This document shows, piece by piece, positions 28-10,993 of a DNA stretch of 39,662 nt. Under the pieces are notes generated by a model, which worked only from the letters and a program-made list of their open reading frames with translations, did not search any database and had not been told where the DNA came from. Numbering within the stretch: position 1 is the first letter of the stretch; each line of letters starts with the position of its first letter. Where the stretch lies: assembly GCA_021205725.1 (NCBI GenBank), contig JAJPWY010000020.1:1-39662 (forward strand). The letters are read 5' to 3'. The DNA is from Clostridiales bacterium (GTDB lineage: Bacteria; Bacillota; Clostridia; Oscillospirales; Oscillospiraceae). The translations under genes were made by a program, and so were the position numbers.

Positions 28-435
28 TTACAAAAACGCTTGACCAGAACACAGCTTGGTGGAGTAGCGGCTGACCAGGCTGGAGAACACCAGGCTGAAC
101 ACGGCGCTGAGCACCATGGCCAGAATCAAAATCCACAGCCGGGTGGCGTCGGCGTTTACCGCAATGTCCACCGTCACGATATCCACCAGATACTTGCTGA
201 TGACGGAGGACAGCAGGCTGAGAGACGAGCTGACGATGCCCAGGACGGTGTAAAAGACGATGACCCACTTGTACTTCCGGCTAAAGGAGAAGATCCACTT
301 CCAATCCCCGAAAAAGTCCCGGAAGGTGCCGTCGTCGATGAGGTTGATGATATACTGGACTGCCTTGGATTTGAACAGTCGGTTGAGCCCGGAGAAATTC
401 TCAACGTCTCCGGGGCGTTTGATGTCATCTGGCAT
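28..435 (-). pseudogene. ABC exporter, N-terminal transmembrane fragment (truncated)
   Basis: The 135-residue product begins with a soluble stretch, then has hydrophobic helices at about residues 56-77 and 99-120. It resembles the first third of the membrane domain of ABC exporters of the peptide/lipid type, which usually run to about 600 residues with an ATPase domain. No ATPase part is present: a TAA stop at 28-30 ends the frame. The start ATG overlaps the end of the radical SAM gene and has a GGAGG site just upstream, so translational coupling is likely. The inferred role is export of the peptide encoded upstream. The sequence from about position 52 down to 1 is AT-rich and does not continue the family, so the gene looks interrupted (insertion, deletion or assembly join) rather than naturally short. 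Confidence 0.65.
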
Positions 436-1579
436 TCAAGATATCCTCCAATTGGCGCACATGCTCCGCTCTTTCCTCTGCCGGAAGCTGTTCCAGCAGG
501 ATATCCAGCATGGCGTCAGTGATGTCGCACAGGTATTGGGGCTTACGATGAATATCTCCGCATTCTCCCAGACAGGAGGCGGCACAGGACTGACAAAAGA
601 ATTTTTTGGGGCAGCGGTTACATTCATCACAGTTGGAAAGCGACTGTACCTCCGCCACGATTTCCCGCCATGCGGAGAGAAAATCCGACTGTCTCAGGTC
701 AACAGAGGGCGTTTCCAGCATGCCGCAGGCGGTCAGGTTGCCCTGCCAGTTGACCCAAAATCCGGAGCGTGCAGCGGAGCAGGTAAAGCCCTGATTCATG
801 ACCACATTCCCGTGTGGCGTTTCCATCTGTTTCAGCAGCAGCCGGGCCTGTTCCTCCAGGGTGGTGCCGGGGTTGCGCAGGATGGTGGCCTTGAGCCTGG
901 TCTCCGCCGCCTCACGGGGCGACATGCGGGACTGATAAAACCGTTCATTTTCGTTGGAACGCATTCCGGGCGGGAACAGATAGCTTGCTGGGACAAAGGG
1001 AACCTCCAGCTCCCGGGCCAGCTTCACCATGTCCTCCAGGTCGTTACGGTTTTCTCTGGTCAGGGTAAAATTCAATCGCAGCATGACATTGCGTTCCAGC
1101 AGCAGACGAACGGCGTTTACGGTCTGTGTAAATCCCTTTGGATTGTGGCACAGCCGATCATAGGTCTCATTGCTGGCCCCGTACAGGGTGACGTTCAATC
1201 TGCGGCAGGGATTCTCCGCAAAGAAATCCGCCCATTCCTCGTCGATCAGCGTAGCGTTGGTGTTGACGGTCAGAATGAATCCCATCTCCCGCAGGGCCAG
1301 ATACAGCGCCCGGAATTCCGGATACAGCAGCGGCTCCCCGCCCGTTATCAGCAGGAACAGAACCCCTGCCTCCTTTGCTTCCTGAGCGATATGAAGCCAT
1401 TCCTCTTTTGTCAGCAGAGGTTGCTCCAGCTCAGAGACATTGTGCCGGACATAACACATATTGCAGTTCATGTTGCACAGGGGCAAAAGCTCGAATCCGC
1501 CCCCCAGGGGATATCGCAATGCGTCCGCCTTTGCCCGGAGATAGTCCTCTACCGGGCTTTCCGTTTCATACAGTTCCAT
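425..1579 (-). CDS. Radical SAM/SPASM peptide-modifying enzyme
   Basis: A 384-aa protein with the radical SAM CX3CX2C cluster motif at Cys35, Cys39 and Cys42, a GGEP motif about 50 residues later, and a Cys-rich SPASM-type C-terminus (CDECNRC, then CQSC and further Cys) that should bind auxiliary [4Fe-4S] clusters. Enzymes of this kind cut S-adenosylmethionine to a radical and install crosslinks or other changes in ribosomal peptides. The ATG at 1579 is chosen because GGAGG lies 10 bases upstream; a longer in-frame extension to 1702 overlaps the kinase gene and has no such site. It overlaps the kinase by 14 bases and the exporter fragment by 11, so the genes are one transcript. The particular chemistry cannot be read from sequence. 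No PqqD-like recognition domain is apparent. Confidence 0.9.
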   Translation of the reverse strand: MELYETESPVEDYLRAKADALRYPLGGGFELLPLCNMNCNMCYVRHNVSELEQPLLTKEEWLHIAQEAKEAGVLFLLITGGEPLLYPEFRALYLALREMGFILTVNTNATLIDEEWADFFAENPCRRLNVTLYGASNETYDRLCHNPKGFTQTVNAVRLLLERNVMLRLNFTLTRENRNDLEDMVKLARELEVPFVPASYLFPPGMRSNENERFYQSRMSPREAAETRLKATILRNPGTTLEEQARLLLKQMETPHGNVVMNQGFTCSAARSGFWVNWQGNLTACGMLETPSVDLRQSDFLSAWREIVAEVQSLSNCDECNRCPKKFFCQSCAASCLGECGDIHRKPQYLCDITDAMLDILLEQLPAEERAEHVRQLEDILNAR

Positions 1580-2441
1580 GAGGCTTTTCCTCCAAATATT
1601 GGCGCAGAGTCCAGACCGCCGTGGGCTCCATGGTGCAGTCCAGACCGACAATATCGGCGTTGTTTGCCAAATCCTCCGCCAATTCGAACGCCTGAGCCAC
1701 ATCCTCGGCGTTCCATCGGTTTACCGTAGTCTCGCTGTGCAAGGCAAGCATTTTCTCCACGGGAGAGAGCGGGCGCACGCTGTCCTCCATTGCCTGTCGC
1801 AGCACCGCAATGGCCCGGAGAGGAACGCAGACATTCACGCAGTCTGTAGAGGTGCCGTGCCAGGGAGAGCCGGTGACCACCCACTGCCCGTCCCGCTTCC
1901 ACAACAGGTTCCGGTCGCCATTAAAGGGCGACGCATCTGTGTGCCGTTTCCACAGGTCTGCCTGGGTGCTCTTTCCTGTCCCGGAGGGAGCGCTGAACAG
2001 AATGGCCTTGCCCTGATAGATTACGCTGGCGGAGTGAAGAAGAAAGGCGTTTTCTTTCAGAAGAAAGTGCTCAATGCCGACCATGCTGTTCAGGTTTTGG
2101 GTGGGCGGAGCGCTGCCCTCCAGCAGGGAGAGCTCGACGGTGTTCGGGCCGGACTGAAACGACCGGGCGAACAGTTTCTTTTGGGGATCGACGGTATAAT
2201 AATAATACCGGCACTCCCGCCCGTCAAGGAGATAGACCTGCAGACCGGAAAAGTCGTAGACCATCCGGCCCTCCGGCGACAGGGCCGGAACCCGAGTCAT
2301 ATGGACAGAGTAGGTAGCGGTATGCCCTGCCTCCGTCTGCCAGTTTTCCGCATCCGGCCACACAGAGAGCAGAGCATCGTCCCCCCAGTAGCGCAGGGCC
2401 AGCGGCCCAATGCGAATGGTCACCTCACGGCCTTTGTTCAT
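1566..2441 (-). CDS. HPr-kinase-like P-loop protein of RiPP locus
   Basis: A 291-aa protein. Residues 150-159 (SAPSGTGKST) form a Walker A loop, preceded by LLHSASV (134-140), a pattern seen in HPr(Ser) kinase-like proteins. The first 110 residues resemble the variable N-terminal part of the HprK-like proteins encoded beside lasso-peptide and radical SAM peptide genes; in paeninodin biosynthesis such a kinase phosphorylates the precursor. A role in phosphorylating the peptide encoded at 2514-2912, or in an ATP-dependent recognition step, is therefore inferred. The start is supported by GAGGAGG 6 bases upstream. It is separated from the precursor gene by a strong hairpin and overlaps the radical SAM gene. 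It is not the housekeeping HprK, which lacks this context. Confidence 0.8.
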   Translation of the reverse strand: MNKGREVTIRIGPLALRYWGDDALLSVWPDAENWQTEAGHTATYSVHMTRVPALSPEGRMVYDFSGLQVYLLDGRECRYYYYTVDPQKKLFARSFQSGPNTVELSLLEGSAPPTQNLNSMVGIEHFLLKENAFLLHSASVIYQGKAILFSAPSGTGKSTQADLWKRHTDASPFNGDRNLLWKRDGQWVVTGSPWHGTSTDCVNVCVPLRAIAVLRQAMEDSVRPLSPVEKMLALHSETTVNRWNAEDVAQAFELAEDLANNADIVGLDCTMEPTAVWTLRQYLEEKPHGTV

Positions 2442-2453
2442 GGCTGCCTCCTC

Positions 2454-2492
2454 AAAAAAGCCAGAGAGCGCCGCAACGCCCTCTGGCTTTTT
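2454..2492 (-). terminator. Hairpin terminator/attenuator between precursor and kinase
   Basis: An 11-bp stem (one G-T pair) at 2460-2487 with a 6-base loop, flanked by A6 and T5 so that it can work in either direction. On the minus strand it follows the precursor stop and precedes the kinase site by only a few bases. In peptide gene clusters, partial termination here makes far more precursor than enzyme; that role is inferred. Confidence 0.85.
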
Positions 2493-2513
2493 CTCAATTT
2501 TATTTCCGATAGG

Positions 2514-2912
2514 TCAATAACTCAGGTTTGTCTGAATTGCGCCAGTATCCGTATCATAGTCAATTGCGGCATAATGCCAGCCCGATGGTACTTGAGAAGT
2601 ACTTGAATAGTAGCCAGCTTGAACAACAAGGGTTGCCAAGAAAGCAGTCAAAGTATCATCCGGTTTACCGCTACTGCCCGTATCGCCTGCATAAGTATAC
2701 CAGACAAGATAATAACTACCGTCATAGGGAACAATTTTAGCACTTGTAGTGCTACAACCGCTGGCATAAACCGTCTCCGTCTGTTTACCAATTTCACAGT
2801 AAACCGTCACCTGCCCGGCAGTCGTCCCCGGCGTATAGGTGCACTGGGCCACAGCCTGGTTCATCAAGAACTTCTGCAACACCACCACCGGCACCTCATA
2901 TGTCTTCTTCAT
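2514..2912 (-). CDS. Candidate RiPP precursor peptide (132 aa)
   Basis: No known name is recognised. The 132-aa product opens MKKTYEVP and has a hydrophobic KFLMNQAVAQ segment at residues 14-23, which looks like a leader; Lys-Lys-x-Tyr-Glu-x-Pro starts are common in putative Clostridial peptide precursors. From residue 24 on it is rich in Tyr (14 in all), Ser, Thr and Gly, with Cys at 24, 39 and 53, and ends Leu-Ser-Tyr. GGAAGGGGGA lies before the ATG. The gene has a consensus promoter and is followed by a terminator-like hairpin, then kinase, radical SAM and exporter genes. That layout is the main reason to call it a precursor. It is long for a RiPP precursor, so a small secreted or structural protein modified by these enzymes is the alternative. 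Confidence 0.65.
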   Translation of the reverse strand: MKKTYEVPVVVLQKFLMNQAVAQCTYTPGTTAGQVTVYCEIGKQTETVYASGCSTTSAKIVPYDGSYYLVWYTYAGDTGSSGKPDDTLTAFLATLVVQAGYYSSTSQVPSGWHYAAIDYDTDTGAIQTNLSY

Positions 2913-2929
2913 CTCAAATATCCCCCTTC

Positions 2930-2947
2930 CGCCGGTACACCCCGGCG
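2930..2947 (-). promoter_or_regulatory. 5'-UTR hairpin abutting the precursor ribosome site
   Basis: On the minus strand CGCCGG, a 6-base loop, then CCGGCG forms a perfect 6-bp G+C stem directly upstream of the GGAAGGGGG ribosome site. A second small stem (GGAAG-4-CTTCC) lies at 2978-2991 in the same leader of about 88 nt. They may protect the mRNA or tune translation; no known riboswitch class is recognised. Confidence 0.5.
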
Positions 2948-3007
2948 TATCATGCTTGTCTATTCCCGGGGAGATGCGGAAGACACCTTCCCTTGTTTGT
3001 CTCCTTG

Positions 3008-3036
3008 ATTATAGCCCCGTTTTTTCAGGGTGTCAA
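3008..3036 (-). promoter_or_regulatory. Perfect sigma-A promoter for the peptide locus
   Basis: Reading the minus strand, the -35 box TTGACA (3036-3031), a 17-base spacer and the -10 box TATAAT (3013-3008) match the vegetative consensus at every position. Transcription should begin near 3001, about 88 nt before the precursor start. A fully consensus promoter implies strong expression unless a repressor acts. Confidence 0.9.
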
Positions 3037-3139: not shown

Positions 3140-4177
3140 TTAACCCTCGACAGTAGAGCCGGAGCCGTAGATGAACTCCTTCAAATCCGCCCGGAGCAAA
3201 TCCCAGTTAGTGGGCACCAGCACGGCCATCTTCCGGATGGTCTGGCTGGAATAGCTGCCGTCCTCGGGGACACGGTATTCCTCGATGGAGTCCGTCCCCA
3301 GGTTGTAGGCGGTGAGGGCGAGAGACAGAATCTCGTCGTTGTTCATGTCGGTGGTGATGTCGTCGGCCACCGTCTCATACAGGGCCCACAGGTCGGTAAA
3401 TTCCTGATCCTTGAGCTGACTGAAAATGGCCTGTATCACCGCCCGCTGGCGCTGGGTGCGGCCGAAGTCGGAATAGGAGCCGTCCTCGGTGTTGACGTAG
3501 CGGATACGGGCGTAGGCCAGTGCCTCCTCCCCGTTGAGGAGGTTGTAGCCCGCCGTCAGCCCAGAGAAGGAGTTGCCGCCGCCCTTGCTGCTGTATTGGC
3601 TGTTGCCGGAGAGGTAGTTCACCTCGGACTGGGTGAGCTTAATGGTCACGCCGCCGATGGCGTCGATGATCTCCTGGAAGCCGGTGAAGTCCACCTCTAC
3701 ATTGTAGTCGATGGTGATGCCGAAGTTGGTCTCGATGGTGGAATCCAGCAGGTCGAAGCCGCCGAAGGCATAGGCGGCATTGAGCTTGTTGTCGCTGTAG
3801 CCGGGAATCTGGACATAGAGGTCACGCATGAGGGAGGTCATTTTCAGGGCGCCGTTGGTGGTGTCCACCGTCAGGATAATCATGGTGTCCGACCGGGCCC
3901 GCTGGCCCGCTACCCGGGTGTCCTGGCCCACCAGCAGGATGTTGGTCACGCCCTCCACCGTCTCCACGCCCTCCACGGTGCCGTAGTCGATGGAGCTGCT
4001 GTCGATGGTGTCCTCCTCGTCGGTGTCCTCCTCAAAGTCCTCGGTGGTGTACTCCGTCTCGCTGGCGGTGACACGGTTGATCTTGTTGAGCTGCACCTGC
4101 AAAAAGGCGTATGCGCCAATCACCATCAGGGACAGAACGGCCAAAATGACCAGTACGACCTTCCTTAATTTCGACAT
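3140..4177 (-). CDS. LytR-CpsA-Psr (LCP) family cell-wall ligase
   Basis: A 345-aa protein with a short cytoplasmic start, one membrane helix at about residues 7-27, an acidic Ser/Thr/Glu/Asp-rich linker (about 37-75), then the LCP domain (about 78-240). Visible family signatures are NILLVGQD near 79, the RSDTMIILTVD segment with its Arg and Asp, SLMRDLYV, and DFGRTQRQR near 240. LCP enzymes transfer lipid-linked anionic glycopolymers to peptidoglycan on the outer face of the membrane. The ATG follows an upstream GGAGGT-like site. It has its own promoter and a hairpin in the leader. No convincing terminator separates it from the peptide locus downstream, so some read-through is possible. The polymer it attaches cannot be told. 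Confidence 0.92.
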   Translation of the reverse strand: MSKLRKVVLVILAVLSLMVIGAYAFLQVQLNKINRVTASETEYTTEDFEEDTDEEDTIDSSSIDYGTVEGVETVEGVTNILLVGQDTRVAGQRARSDTMIILTVDTTNGALKMTSLMRDLYVQIPGYSDNKLNAAYAFGGFDLLDSTIETNFGITIDYNVEVDFTGFQEIIDAIGGVTIKLTQSEVNYLSGNSQYSSKGGGNSFSGLTAGYNLLNGEEALAYARIRYVNTEDGSYSDFGRTQRQRAVIQAIFSQLKDQEFTDLWALYETVADDITTDMNNDEILSLALTAYNLGTDSIEEYRVPEDGSYSSQTIRKMAVLVPTNWDLLRADLKEFIYGSGSTVEG

Positions 4178-4559: not shown

Positions 4560-6377
4560 ATGAGTCGTATTATCGGGATCGATCTGGGCACCACCAACAG
4601 CTGTGTGGCGGTGCTGGAAAACGGGAAGCCTGTCATTATCCCCAACGCCGAGGGAAACCGTACCACCCCCTCTATTGTCGCCTTTACCAAAAACGGCGAA
4701 CGGCTGGTGGGCGATCTGGCCAAGCGTCAGGCGGTGACCAACGCCGCCGGAACCGTCTCCTCTATCAAGCGGGAGATGGGGACGGACACCCGGCTGGAGC
4801 TGGGAGGCAAGCGTCGCACTCCCCAGGAGATCAGCGCCATGATCCTTCACAAGCTGAAAACGGATGCGGAGGCCTATCTGGGCGAGACGGTGAGCGACGC
4901 CGTCATCACCGTCCCCGCCTATTTTAATGATGTGCAGCGGCAGGCCACCAAGGATGCCGGGCGCATCGCCGGGCTGAACGTCCGGCGTATCATCAACGAG
5001 CCCACGGCGGCGGCCCTGGCCTACGGCCTCGACCACGGGGAGAGCCAGAAGATCATGGTCTACGACCTGGGCGGCGGCACCTTCGACGTGTCCATCATCG
5101 AGATTGGGGACGGCGTCATCGAGGTGCTGTCCACCTGCGGAGACAACCATCTGGGCGGCGACGACTTTGACCAGCGACTGACCAACTATCTGGTCAGCGA
5201 GTTCAAGCAGCAGACGAAGTACAACATCGCCAAGGATCCCATGGCGCTCCAGCGGGTGCGGGAGGCGGCGGAGAAGGCCAAGAAGGAGCTTTCCGCCTCC
5301 ACCACCGCCAACGTCAACCTGCCCTTCCTGGCCCAGGGTCGCTCCGGGCCTCTGCACATGGACATCACCGTCACACGGGCGGTCTTTGAGCAGCTGACCC
5401 GTGACCTGGTGGAGCGCACCACCATGCCGGTGCAGACCGCCCTCAACGACGCCGGGCTGTCCGTCTCCCAGCTGGGGCGGGTGCTGCTGGTGGGCGGTTC
5501 CACCCGGATGCCCGCCGTCCAGGATCACGTCCGCTCTCTGGTGGGTATGATGCCCAGCAAGGGACTGAACCCGGACGAGTGCGTGGCTATGGGCGCCGCC
5601 ATCCAGGGCGGCACGCTGGAGGGCTCCCTCATCGCCGGAAATACCGGAAACGGGATGTCCTCCTCCGGAGCCGGGCAGGAGATTTTGCTGCTGGACGTGA
5701 CGCCCCTCTCCCTGTCCATCGAGACGGTGGGCGGCGTAGCCACCCGGCTCATCGAGCGTAACTCCACCCTGCCCGTCCACTACTCCCAGATCTTTACCAC
5801 CGCTGCCAACTTCCAGACCAATGTGGAGATTCATGTCCTCCAGGGAGAGCGGCCTATGGCCCGGGACAACAAGACCATCGGCAAGTTCCGGCTCACCGGC
5901 ATCAAACGGGCTCCCCGGGGCGTTCCTCAGATCGAGGTCACCTTTGACCTGGACACCAACGGTATATTAAAGGTCAGCGCAAAGGATCTGGGCACTGGCC
6001 GGGCCCAGGAGATCGTCATCTCCTCCAGCTCCAACCTGTCCGAGGCTGAGATCCAGCAGGCCATCCGGGACGCTGAGGAGTACGCCGCCGCAGACAGCCA
6101 GCGGAAGGAGGCCATGGAGGTTCGCAACCAGGCGGAGACCCTGGTGATGGAGACCAAGGAGGCCATCCGGGTCTGCGGCAAGGAGCTGAACAAGGCAGAT
6201 CAGAAGCAGGTGAAAAACGATCTGGCCAATCTGGAGCGGCTGGTGAACCGGAACCGTCCGGAGAAGATGACAGCCGACGCCCTGCCGGAGATGAAGGCCG
6301 CCATGGAGCAGCTCCGGCGCTCCTCTGCCACTCTGTCCCAGCTGTATGCCAGCCATCAGTCCTCCGGGCAGAGCTGA
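4560..6377 (+). CDS. dnaK: DnaK-type Hsp70 chaperone with linker insertion
   Basis: A 605-aa Hsp70. The nucleotide-binding domain shows [10 protein letters not shown] (5-14), [11 protein letters not shown], the [10 protein letters not shown] phosphate loop and LVGGSTRMP; the interdomain linker [10 protein letters not shown] (376-385) and a substrate-binding domain with a helical lid follow. It would bind unfolded protein in the cytoplasm in an ATP-driven cycle. Two things are odd. About 16-18 Gly/Ser/Asn-rich residues (roughly 356-373) lie just before the linker, where DnaK normally has only a few. The C-terminus ends HQSSGQS without the acidic tail usual in DnaK. It has no grpE, dnaJ or hrcA neighbours but sits before XpaC/TelA/TPM genes, so it may be a specialised paralogue; whether it is the only DnaK in the genome is unknown. 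Confidence 0.93.
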
Positions 6378-6402
6378 GATTCTCCCCTTTCCCTTCTTTT
6401 TC

Positions 6403-9538: not shown

Positions 9539-10993
9539 TCAGATTGTCTTGTCCTCAAGCACGATATGTGCCTTCAGCAGATTGGTATACCCGGTGGCCC
9601 CCAGAGGGACGCCGGCGGTGATGATGATACGGTCTCCCGCCTGCACCAGATGCTCCTTCACAGCAGTCTCAGCGCAGAGAGAGAAGATGCGGTCGGTGGA
9701 GCTGACCTCCCCGGTCAGGCAGGGCACAACGCCCCAAAGCAAATTCATCTGACGGCGGGTCTTTTCCCGGAGGGTGATGGCCACTACGCCACAGGCAGGC
9801 CGGAACCGGGAGATGAGCCGGGCGGTATGTCCGGATGCGGTAGCGGTGACAATGGCCTTGGCGTCCAAATCCATGGCGGTCAGGCAACAGGTATGGGTGA
9901 TGGCGTCGCTGATGGCGTTCTGGGTGCCGATGCCGCTGACCTTGCCATAGCGGTTCTGGAACCGGTGCCAGTAGTCGATAGAGGCCTCCGCCTGGGCGAC
10001 GATGGAGGTCATGGTCTCCACCGCCTCCACCGGGAATTTGCCGCTGGCAGTCTCTCCGGAAAGCATGACGCAGTCCGCCCCGTCAAAAACGGCGTTGGCC
10101 ACGTCGGATACCTCCGCCCGGGTGGGCCGGGGGTTGCGGATCATGGAGTCCAGCATCTGAGTGGCGATGATGACCAGCTTGCCCTGCTGAACCGCCGCCT
10201 TAATCATCCGCTTCTGCTGCACCGGAACCTGGGCGGCAGGAATCTCCACTCCCAGGTCGCCACGGGCCACCATAATGCCGTCAGACTCGGCCAGGATCTC
10301 CTCCAGGTTGTCCACGCCCTCCTGATTCTCGATTTTGGAGACGATCTTCACGCTGTCTCCGCCGTACTTGTGCAGCACCGCGCGGATGGCCCGGACGTCC
10401 TCCGCTTTGCGGACGAAGGAGGCAGCGATGTAGTCAAAGTCCTGCTCCACGCCAAAGCGGATGTCCTCCTCGTCCTTCTCTGTGAGGGCGGGGAGATGAA
10501 TGGAGACACCGGGGATGTTGATGCTCTTGTGGTTAGACAGGGTGCCGCCGTTAACCACAGTGCAACAGATATCCTGCCCCTGAATGTCCCGAACCTCCAG
10601 ACCGACAAGGCCGTCGTCGATGAGGATTTTGGTGCCCGGTGCGACCTCCTCGTTGAGCCTGTCATAGGTCACGGAGACGATGTGCTCGTCCCCTGCCACG
10701 CTGCGGGTGGTCAGAATGAACTCCGCTCCGTTTTCCAGAGTCACGCTCCCCTGAGCGAAGGTACGGATACGGATTTCCGGGCCCTTGGTGTCCAGGATGG
10801 TGGCAACCGGTGCGCCCATGGAATCCCGCACGGCTCTCAGGCGGTTCAGCGTCTCCAGATGGCTGGCGTGATTCCCATGGGAAAAATTGAACCGTGCGCC
10901 GTTCATACCGGCCAGAATAAGCTGGCGAATCTGCTCTGCGCTGTCTACCGCAGGGCCCAATGTACAAATCACCTTGGTTTTTCTGACTTCCAT
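9539..10993 (-). CDS. pyk: Pyruvate kinase
   Basis: A 484-aa glycolytic enzyme that makes pyruvate and ATP from phosphoenolpyruvate and ADP in the cytoplasm. The N-terminus has KVICTLGPA, then [38 protein letters not shown] and [12 protein letters not shown], all classical active-site segments, followed by the regulatory C-terminal domain. There is no extra PEP-utiliser-like C-terminal domain as in some Bacillus enzymes. The ATG at 10993 follows GGGGAGG; a longer frame to 11017 has no ribosome site. It is monocistronic: it has its own promoter (11048-11076) and ends at a shared terminator. It supplies pyruvate for the fermentation suggested by ptb-buk and the hydrogenase. Confidence 0.97.

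Follow-up and report, generated by a model that had tools for sequence, protein, structure and literature searches.

Gene content and expression signals of the locus

In this study, we analysed a 39,662-nucleotide stretch of DNA from a Clostridiales bacterium of the Oscillospiraceae (assembly GCA_021205725.1, contig JAJPWY010000020.1, positions 1 to 39,662 of the forward strand), hereafter the window, at one edge of which a minus-strand unit encodes a candidate precursor peptide, an HprK-like kinase, a radical S-adenosylmethionine (SAM) enzyme with a SPASM region and part of an ATP-binding cassette (ABC) exporter. A first-pass annotation had proposed these genes as a locus for a ribosomally synthesized and post-translationally modified peptide (RiPP). 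Open reading frames (ORFs) and profile matches confirmed the gene set, and the locus is real and of the RiPP type. In order of transcription its features are:

3008..3036, minus strand: promoter-like site TTGACA-17-TATAAT upstream of the precursor, of the sigma-70 type, with 12/12 consensus positions
2514..2912, minus strand: precursor gene, an ORF of 132 aa (leader profile E 2.8e-9)
2841..2912, minus strand: leader region, with motif YEVPVV, an instance of the [Y/W]xxPx[hydrophobic] motif bound by RiPP recognition elements (RREs), and conserved F..N..VA
2520..2522, minus strand: codon of Ser131, the penultimate residue and predicted phosphorylation site (from Ser conservation and the precedent of the kinase PadeK, see below)
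2454..2493, minus strand: terminator-like hairpin in the precursor-kinase gap, with an 18-bp stem and a U run
1566..2441, minus strand: HprK-like kinase of 291 aa with H136, P-loop K157 and D176 (profile comparison)
425..1579, minus strand: radical SAM/SPASM enzyme of 384 aa (Pfam Radical_SAM 7.4e-26)
28..435, minus strand: N-terminal fragment (135 aa) of an MsbA-like ABC exporter, an ORF truncated by the contig end

Position 1 of the window is the first base of its contig (C83 of the 2.1-Mb draft genome), and the exporter is therefore incomplete and genes beyond the edge are unseen. The exporter described earlier is present as an ABC frame, but only as a fragment, which matches its relatives as far as the residues STKLC and diverges thereafter at the contig edge; its family type was taken from a full-length relative (L042:10857-12665). 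The kinase stop and radical SAM start overlap by 14 bases and the radical SAM and ABC frames by 11 bases, and all three frames have GGAGG-like ribosome sites. The start of the radical SAM enzyme is the ATG at 1579, with a GGAGG ribosome site, a 425-aa frame being merely the longest ORF.

The precursor has the properties first ascribed to it, namely 132 residues, Cys at 24, 39 and 53, and 14 Tyr. On its own it had no relative in the genome contigs and no Pfam or NCBIfam family; homologues are found at L040:8343-8693, L090:3913-4320 and L091:737-1165, near the same enzyme types. A chance ORF was ruled out by the leader, promoter, hairpin and homologues. A consensus scan found four promoter-like sites in the 1-kb region, both strands, versus 0.8 in shuffles; the hairpin at 2454-2493 was not listed by that scan, and has a folding energy of -30.2 kcal/mol over a 76-nt stretch (z -3.4). 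A hairpin plus T run follows 42/80 distinct precursors of the family described below versus 18/192 kinase or radical SAM genes, and the hairpin between precursor and kinase is likely, judging from the DNA, a partial terminator. A promoter combined with a partial terminator is a common way to obtain precursor in excess over enzyme.

Just upstream of the unit, on the same strand, lies a LytR-CpsA-Psr gene (window 3140-4177, 4.4e-42), which, together with polysaccharide-type genes near some of the other loci, may point to a connection with the cell envelope.

Leader, C-terminal serine and enzymes across the family

Scanning bacterial genomes with an alignment of the radical SAM enzyme gave 79 named loci from the best 80 of 491 relatives, and 19 further loci came from the window's own genus and family. 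The latter were fetched by kinase match and contain a kinase by construction (19/19), so the 79 named loci are the unbiased set. The resulting 98 loci include one duplicate (L111 is the L044 stretch), and many stretches are cut by contig ends, making all gene counts lower bounds. Among the 79 named loci, a kinase lies within 100 bp of the radical SAM gene in 54 and anywhere in the stretch in 66, with a PqqD protein in 61, a leader-motif ORF in 52, a peptidase of the SpI type (archaeal-type signal peptidase) in 24, an exporter in 20 and a nucleoside triphosphate (NTP) transferase in 20; the corresponding counts for all 98 loci are 71, 85, 76, 70, 28, 24 and 20. Thirteen named loci have no kinase in the stretch; they come from 12 genomes, every one of which has a kinase elsewhere (best E 1e-47 to 1e-114), those of G453 and G456 matching at ~1e-48 only and possibly being of the other kinase type. 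In 300 genomes of the family, 30 of the 34 radical SAM matches at E<=1e-110 lie within 65 bp of an independently searched kinase; of the other four, two share a contig with a kinase (at 1.2 and 12 kb) and two do not.

The named loci are mostly from gut Clostridia (Lachnospiraceae, Oscillospiraceae, Erysipelotrichaceae and others), with Intestinibacter bartlettii, Coprococcus catus, Faecalicatena contorta and Anaeromassilibacillus senegalensis among the carriers by record title, and these 79 loci in other Clostridia rule out an oddity restricted to one genus. The window's own genome has three leaders, three radical SAM enzymes and three strong kinase matches. Its two paralogous loci encode a PqqD protein, a 131-aa precursor, the radical SAM enzyme and the kinase (L010, contig C43), and a PqqD protein, a 254-aa protein with a membrane-anchor-like start, an 89-aa precursor, the kinase and the radical SAM enzyme (L011, contig C40). 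By kinase identity the closest relatives are L040 (52%) and L090 (50%). Three individual loci are unusual: L151, from a metagenome-assembled genome (MAG) labelled Bacteroidaceae, has three radical SAM genes, a kinase and three precursors whose leaders are almost identical, representing either horizontal transfer or a mislabelled contig; in L042 the kinase (9932-10822) is inverted relative to the precursor, radical SAM, exporter and PqqD genes, a real inversion or an assembly effect; and the radical SAM frame of L090, the closest of the named relatives and also in a MAG, is interrupted (5237-5527, 5531-6388) by a sequencing error or as a decayed gene.

The leader shared by the precursors, [YW]xxPx6Fxx[NSD]xx[IV]A, was found in 82 of 5784 candidate ORFs compared to a mean of 1.5 and a maximum of 7 in 20 shuffles, and after two spurious motif ORFs (L043:12301-12792 and L044:286-399) and the duplicate L111 were dropped, precursor counts were based on 80 distinct sequences. 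Their consensus is YxKPxxxxExFxxNxxIAAC, varying in a single F at the [YW] position, F or Y after the six residues, N, S or D, then I or V, and A, with a Cys a few residues on. A 24-residue profile of this leader matched exactly three times in the window's own genome even at E<=10, once per kinase/radical SAM locus. In the 300 family genomes it matched 36 times at E<=1e-3; a kinase lies no more than 3 kb away in 28 cases, and a radical SAM gene no more than 4 kb away in 25. Leader-bearing precursors thus mostly adjoin one or both enzyme genes, which supports the RiPP interpretation. Eight matches are away from a kinase. Three of those eight (G177, G213, G246) are at the end of a contig or on one that is short, one, in G059, is a Cys-free peptide of 60 aa around which no enzyme gene was found, and one (G189:C36) gave no leader ORF at threshold in the fetched stretch. 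The remaining three are orphans with no enzyme gene in 12 kb (L170, L171 and L172, in G302 and G338); the C-terminus is Ser in two of them and Ser-Ala in the third, and both genomes hold a kinase and a radical SAM enzyme elsewhere, so that one enzyme set may serve several precursors.

At the other end of the precursor, Ser is the last or penultimate residue in 80/80 distinct sequences. It is last in 72/80, versus 13/197 called proteins >150 aa from 23 loci (binomial p ~1e-75, kinship ignored), and a Ser-ending majority occurs in 23 of 28 core groups. This test is independent of the search motif; Cys is part of that motif, and Cys counts for precursors of the radical SAM type are therefore biased by one. 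The first-pass annotation had considered the Tyr residues as possible targets, but on the strength of the 80/80 conservation the predicted phosphate site is instead Ser131, which accords with its suggested parallel to the paeninodin kinase. According to a review of lasso peptides (PMC9266682), PadeK acts on the paeninodin precursor by phosphorylating its C-terminal Ser, relatives add up to four phosphates, and PsmN adds hexoses.

Between the two conserved ends the precursors are variable. Counted from the leader on they are 67-155 aa long, and their cores form 28 groups with no detectable similarity between groups. All 80 cores have at least two Cys and 74/80 at least three, one Cys being forced by the motif. 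By eye, several long cores have DxNxDG-like acidic loops resembling calcium-binding repeats (for example L044:11245-11607, L100:1846-2283, L108:4479-4907). Short-class precursors (<100 aa) adjoin, in 11/33 cases within 400 bp, a gene for a large secreted protein of ~1,100-2,150 aa with a signal-like start (L045:5012-8467, L047:10667-14200, L050:3023-7123, L051:11096-16315, L055:10162-14364, and in L054, L048, L131, L152, L162 and L164), compared to 0/47 for the long class. Among five of these large proteins, two have VWA domains, one GH20, one a weak immunoglobulin-like match and one no Pfam domain; several further ones are truncated by locus ends or lie ~2 kb off.

A comparison set was provided by 23 loci with a related kinase and no radical SAM gene in the stretch (L177, L179, L180, L196-L215). 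These have PqqD, SpI and exporter in most cases and resemble the family of linear polyphosphorylated peptides (LPPs; Popov et al., 2026; PMC13381572), and they occur in the window's own Clostridia family, 'Clostrid' appearing nowhere in the LPP main text. Nine of the 23 gave a candidate precursor (32-63 aa), some with weak leader scores (L200 0.23; L202 0.57 and without the Pro), and only 1/9 ends in Ser (p 1.5e-6 versus the radical SAM type). Three of the nine have one Cys, at the leader end (L201), in the leader (L179) or before the first Met (L205).

The kinase is HprK-like, as proposed, on the evidence of a distant match of its profile to HPrK (E 0.005) in which the His and P-loop align, and across 92 kinases H136, K157 and D176 are conserved at 99-100%. 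In a kinase tree, 76/78 kinases within 1.5 kb of a radical SAM gene form one clade (support 0.87) without any of the 27 from radical SAM-free stretches, each set containing one duplicate (L057 and L207, both among the 27 tips, are the same locus). The radical SAM/SPASM assignment was upheld by the Radical_SAM match, by CxxxCxxC at C35/C39/C42 and by seven further cysteines (C267, C285, C320, C323, C329, C332, C351), each of the ten being kept in 96-99% of 109 sequences. Its nearest solved structures are SkfB (4e-23) and 5v1q (3e-17), which we take to be CteB, then sulfatase maturases (anaerobic sulfatase-maturating enzyme, 8e-17); SkfB and CteB perform thioether chemistry. The conserved radical SAM region begins after only ~24 residues, which leaves no room for a fused RRE and rules one out.

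The leader is likelier to be read by a discrete RRE than by the kinase N-terminus. The solved structure closest to a profile of 24 PqqD proteins was LppB (9x8z, 9.6e-10), with TbiB1, 9x90 and TfuB1, all lasso RREs, next in rank, and the sole match of the leader profile to a solved structure was the lasso leader TbiA, albeit weak (E 0.87). The motif [Y/W]xxPx[hydrophobic] is bound by RREs of lasso, PQQ (pyrroloquinoline quinone) and LPP systems (PMC13381572). In the SpI proteins, Ser42, His81 and Asp96 are invariant in 16 aligned sequences; Ser and His are 39 residues apart, just as in LppS (S29, H68, D93; PMC13381572), whereas His and Asp are 15 apart versus 25, and the match to SEC11-type signal peptidases is weak (E 0.01-0.05). 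SpI is encoded at both closest relatives, L040 and L090. The window's own genome has a single copy (L218:8839-9447, G000:C63), and this one could act on all three precursors. It lies on another contig, within a polysaccharide-type locus, and its neighbours, named by eye, include a PHP-type CpsB phosphatase-like protein and a UDP-galactopyranose mutase.

Relation to known RiPP systems

Among known systems the LPPs, rather than lasso peptides, come nearest. Both the LPPs and the loci studied here have a discrete RRE, a YxxP leader, an HprK-like kinase and variable precursors (35-200 aa in LPPs, PMC13381572), and part of the loci also have the SpI-type peptidase and MsbA-like exporter, with polysaccharide genes near some. 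LPP deletions show that the kinase is needed for a +80 Da series and LppS for cleavage, and that LppS without LppB gives no cleavage (PMC13381572). However, neither 'radical' nor 'SPASM' occurs in the LPP main text (PMC13381572), whereas the present loci have a radical SAM enzyme. In addition, only the YxxP part of the full LPP leader YxxPxVLxHQxIxFETxxS is found, its second half being F..N..VA..C rather than VLxHQxIxFET; the present cores all contain Cys; the LPP NTP transferase was found in 20/98 loci and 0/19 of the own genus and family (with one query sequence, and the window being cut by the contig edge); and the kinase clade is separate from the kinases of radical SAM-free LPP-like loci. 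Therefore, we regard the gene set as LPP-like but do not file it as LPP, because of the radical SAM enzyme, the differing second half of the leader and the C-terminal Ser.

The paeninodin-like lassos (PadeK/ThcoK/PsmK, PMC9266682) have in common with the present loci an HprK-like kinase, a discrete RRE, a [Y/W]xxP leader and a C-terminal Ser, but differ in that the present loci have long Cys-containing cores and a radical SAM enzyme. A lasso peptide was ruled out by the precursor lengths of 67-155 aa and by the lasso leader peptidase B2 (Transglut_core3) giving, in the window's own genome, one match of 20.2 bits versus a cut-off of 26, on another contig. No macrolactam cyclase was recognised by eye beside the three own loci, where no profile search for it was made. 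In the available text of PMC4289311, HPr kinase is mentioned once, in lasso clusters.

The SynChlorMet cassette of NCBIfam has the same protein types, with a PqqD-related ScmD and radical SAM/SPASM enzymes ScmE and ScmF, and its ScmC, which the present kinases match, is related to HprK. All matches are far below their cut-offs, though (ScmC <=37/125 bits, ScmD 25/100, ScmE 72/400, ScmF 67/400), and the present loci usually have one radical SAM enzyme. Within the mainly open-access literature searched, no paper names this cassette. Sactipeptide and ranthipeptide maturases such as SkfB and 5v1q have in common with the present system a radical SAM/SPASM enzyme with auxiliary Cys and Cys-containing precursors, but here the RRE is separate from the enzyme, and we know of no kinase in those pathways. 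No RiPP system with both an HprK-like kinase and a radical SAM enzyme is among the literature matches listed, although an earlier description is possible given the coverage of that search. What appears to be new beside the LPPs and paeninodin-like lassos is an RRE/HprK-kinase RiPP operon with a radical SAM enzyme.

Proposed pathway and alternatives

From the gene set, leader, terminal Ser, catalytic residues and gene linkage, all read from sequence, we infer the chemical steps, their order and the function of the system, and we put the probability of the following pathway at roughly 70%. The precursor, having its own promoter and being followed by a partial terminator ahead of the enzyme genes, would be produced in excess. 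A discrete PqqD-type RRE would bind the Y/WxxP leader and present the precursor to both enzymes; the HprK-like kinase would (poly)phosphorylate the terminal or penultimate Ser, which in the window is Ser131; and the radical SAM/SPASM enzyme would modify the Cys-containing core. Possibly, this modification consists of Cys thioether cross-links, our leading guess, albeit a tentative one. The SpI-type peptidase would then cut near the conserved IA..C junction, and the MsbA-like exporter would release the product, perhaps to the cell surface.

Several observations weigh against this pathway. The cores are only moderately Cys-rich, at 4.1% Cys versus 2.7% in the kinases of the same loci and 0.8% in the comparison precursors (one Cys being forced by the motif in the first set), and the kinase value makes thioethers somewhat less likely. 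Of the 98 loci, 28 yielded no leader-motif ORF and 22 no PqqD, and only 28 yielded SpI. PqqD and SpI are both absent from the window itself, so the earlier statement that no PqqD-like protein is present holds within it, but not for the family, as both paralogous loci of the own genome and L040 and L090 carry one; the missing window PqqD is probably a contig-edge effect. The precursors of the window, L040 and L090 end in Ser-Tyr rather than Ser, and the LPP phosphate is on core Ser3 (PMC13381572), whereas the conserved Ser here is C-terminal. For nine weaker radical SAM matches (1e-92 to 1e-64), a kinase is at most 700 bp away in three cases, and the contig has no kinase in the other six. Finally, the terminal Ser is as common in precursors from stretches without a kinase (9/10) as from those with one (63 ending in Ser, 7 not). 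This indicates that the Ser marks the system rather than a neighbouring kinase, and that the radical SAM enzyme could need it. As judged from sequence, the terminal Ser goes with the radical SAM type as a whole, and either the kinase or the radical SAM enzyme may use it.

In one alternative, the kinase and RRE act as in LPPs, on an internal Ser close to the leader junction, and the radical SAM enzyme recognises the terminal Ser or reacts with it, for example by Ser oxidation. Anaerobic sulfatase maturases oxidize Ser or Cys, and one is among the nearest solved structures of our enzyme, although SkfB and 5v1q outscore it, the latter only slightly. The tracking of the terminal Ser with the radical SAM type (72/80 compared to 1/9) also fits, as does the modification of core S3 by LppK (PMC13381572). 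On the other hand, PadeK and its relatives act on a C-terminal Ser (PMC9266682), and a kinase accompanies the radical SAM enzyme in all 12 genomes tested, and we therefore consider this alternative unlikely. The P-loop protein might also be no kinase but an ATP-dependent peptide-binding protein or chaperone, leaving the radical SAM enzyme as sole modifier. NGDR aligns in it to ADDR of HPrK, so that one Asp of the HPrK pair is Gly, a further point against our pathway; lasso kinases are described as having His-Lys-Asp-Asp (PMC9266682), of which the present kinases keep His, Lys and one Asp, with Gly at the other aligned position in what is a weak profile alignment. They also match no Pfam family, and NCBIfam kinase models score far below cut-off. 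Against this, the near-invariance of His, P-loop Lys and one Asp, the conserved terminal Ser, and the phosphorylation of its peptide by LPP (PMC13381572), which has the nearest RRE and a similar gene set bar the radical SAM enzyme, make a non-kinase role quite improbable.

PqqD plus a SPASM enzyme is the core of PQQ-type pathways, and weak PqqD and PqqE profile matches were obtained, raising the question whether the product is not a secreted RiPP but a small molecule or cofactor derived from the peptide, like PQQ or mycofactocin. One core would be expected for a cofactor, whereas we found 28 dissimilar core groups, several precursors in one genome, an exporter in 24/98 loci and SpI in 28/98, and this reading is very improbable.

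Returning to the phosphorylation and radical modification pathway, a more elaborate version of it can be imagined, although it is rather unlikely. The loci would then represent a third branch of RRE/HprK-kinase RiPPs, producing a radical-crosslinked mini-protein whose obligatory C-terminal (poly)phosphoserine fixes the product to the cell surface, via capsule glycan or the large secreted protein whose gene adjoins many short-class precursors, with one enzyme set for several precursors scattered in the genome.

The family offers many natural variants, along with comparison loci that have no radical SAM gene and mostly no terminal Ser, and many gut Clostridia, including named strains, carry diverse versions of the same unstudied gene set. 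If the proposed pathway is correct, it would join C-terminal phosphorylation to radical SAM modification, a pairing unreported in the literature searched, and the enzyme set could act on many different cores, represented here by 28 groups, while the leader and the terminal Ser stay nearly constant.

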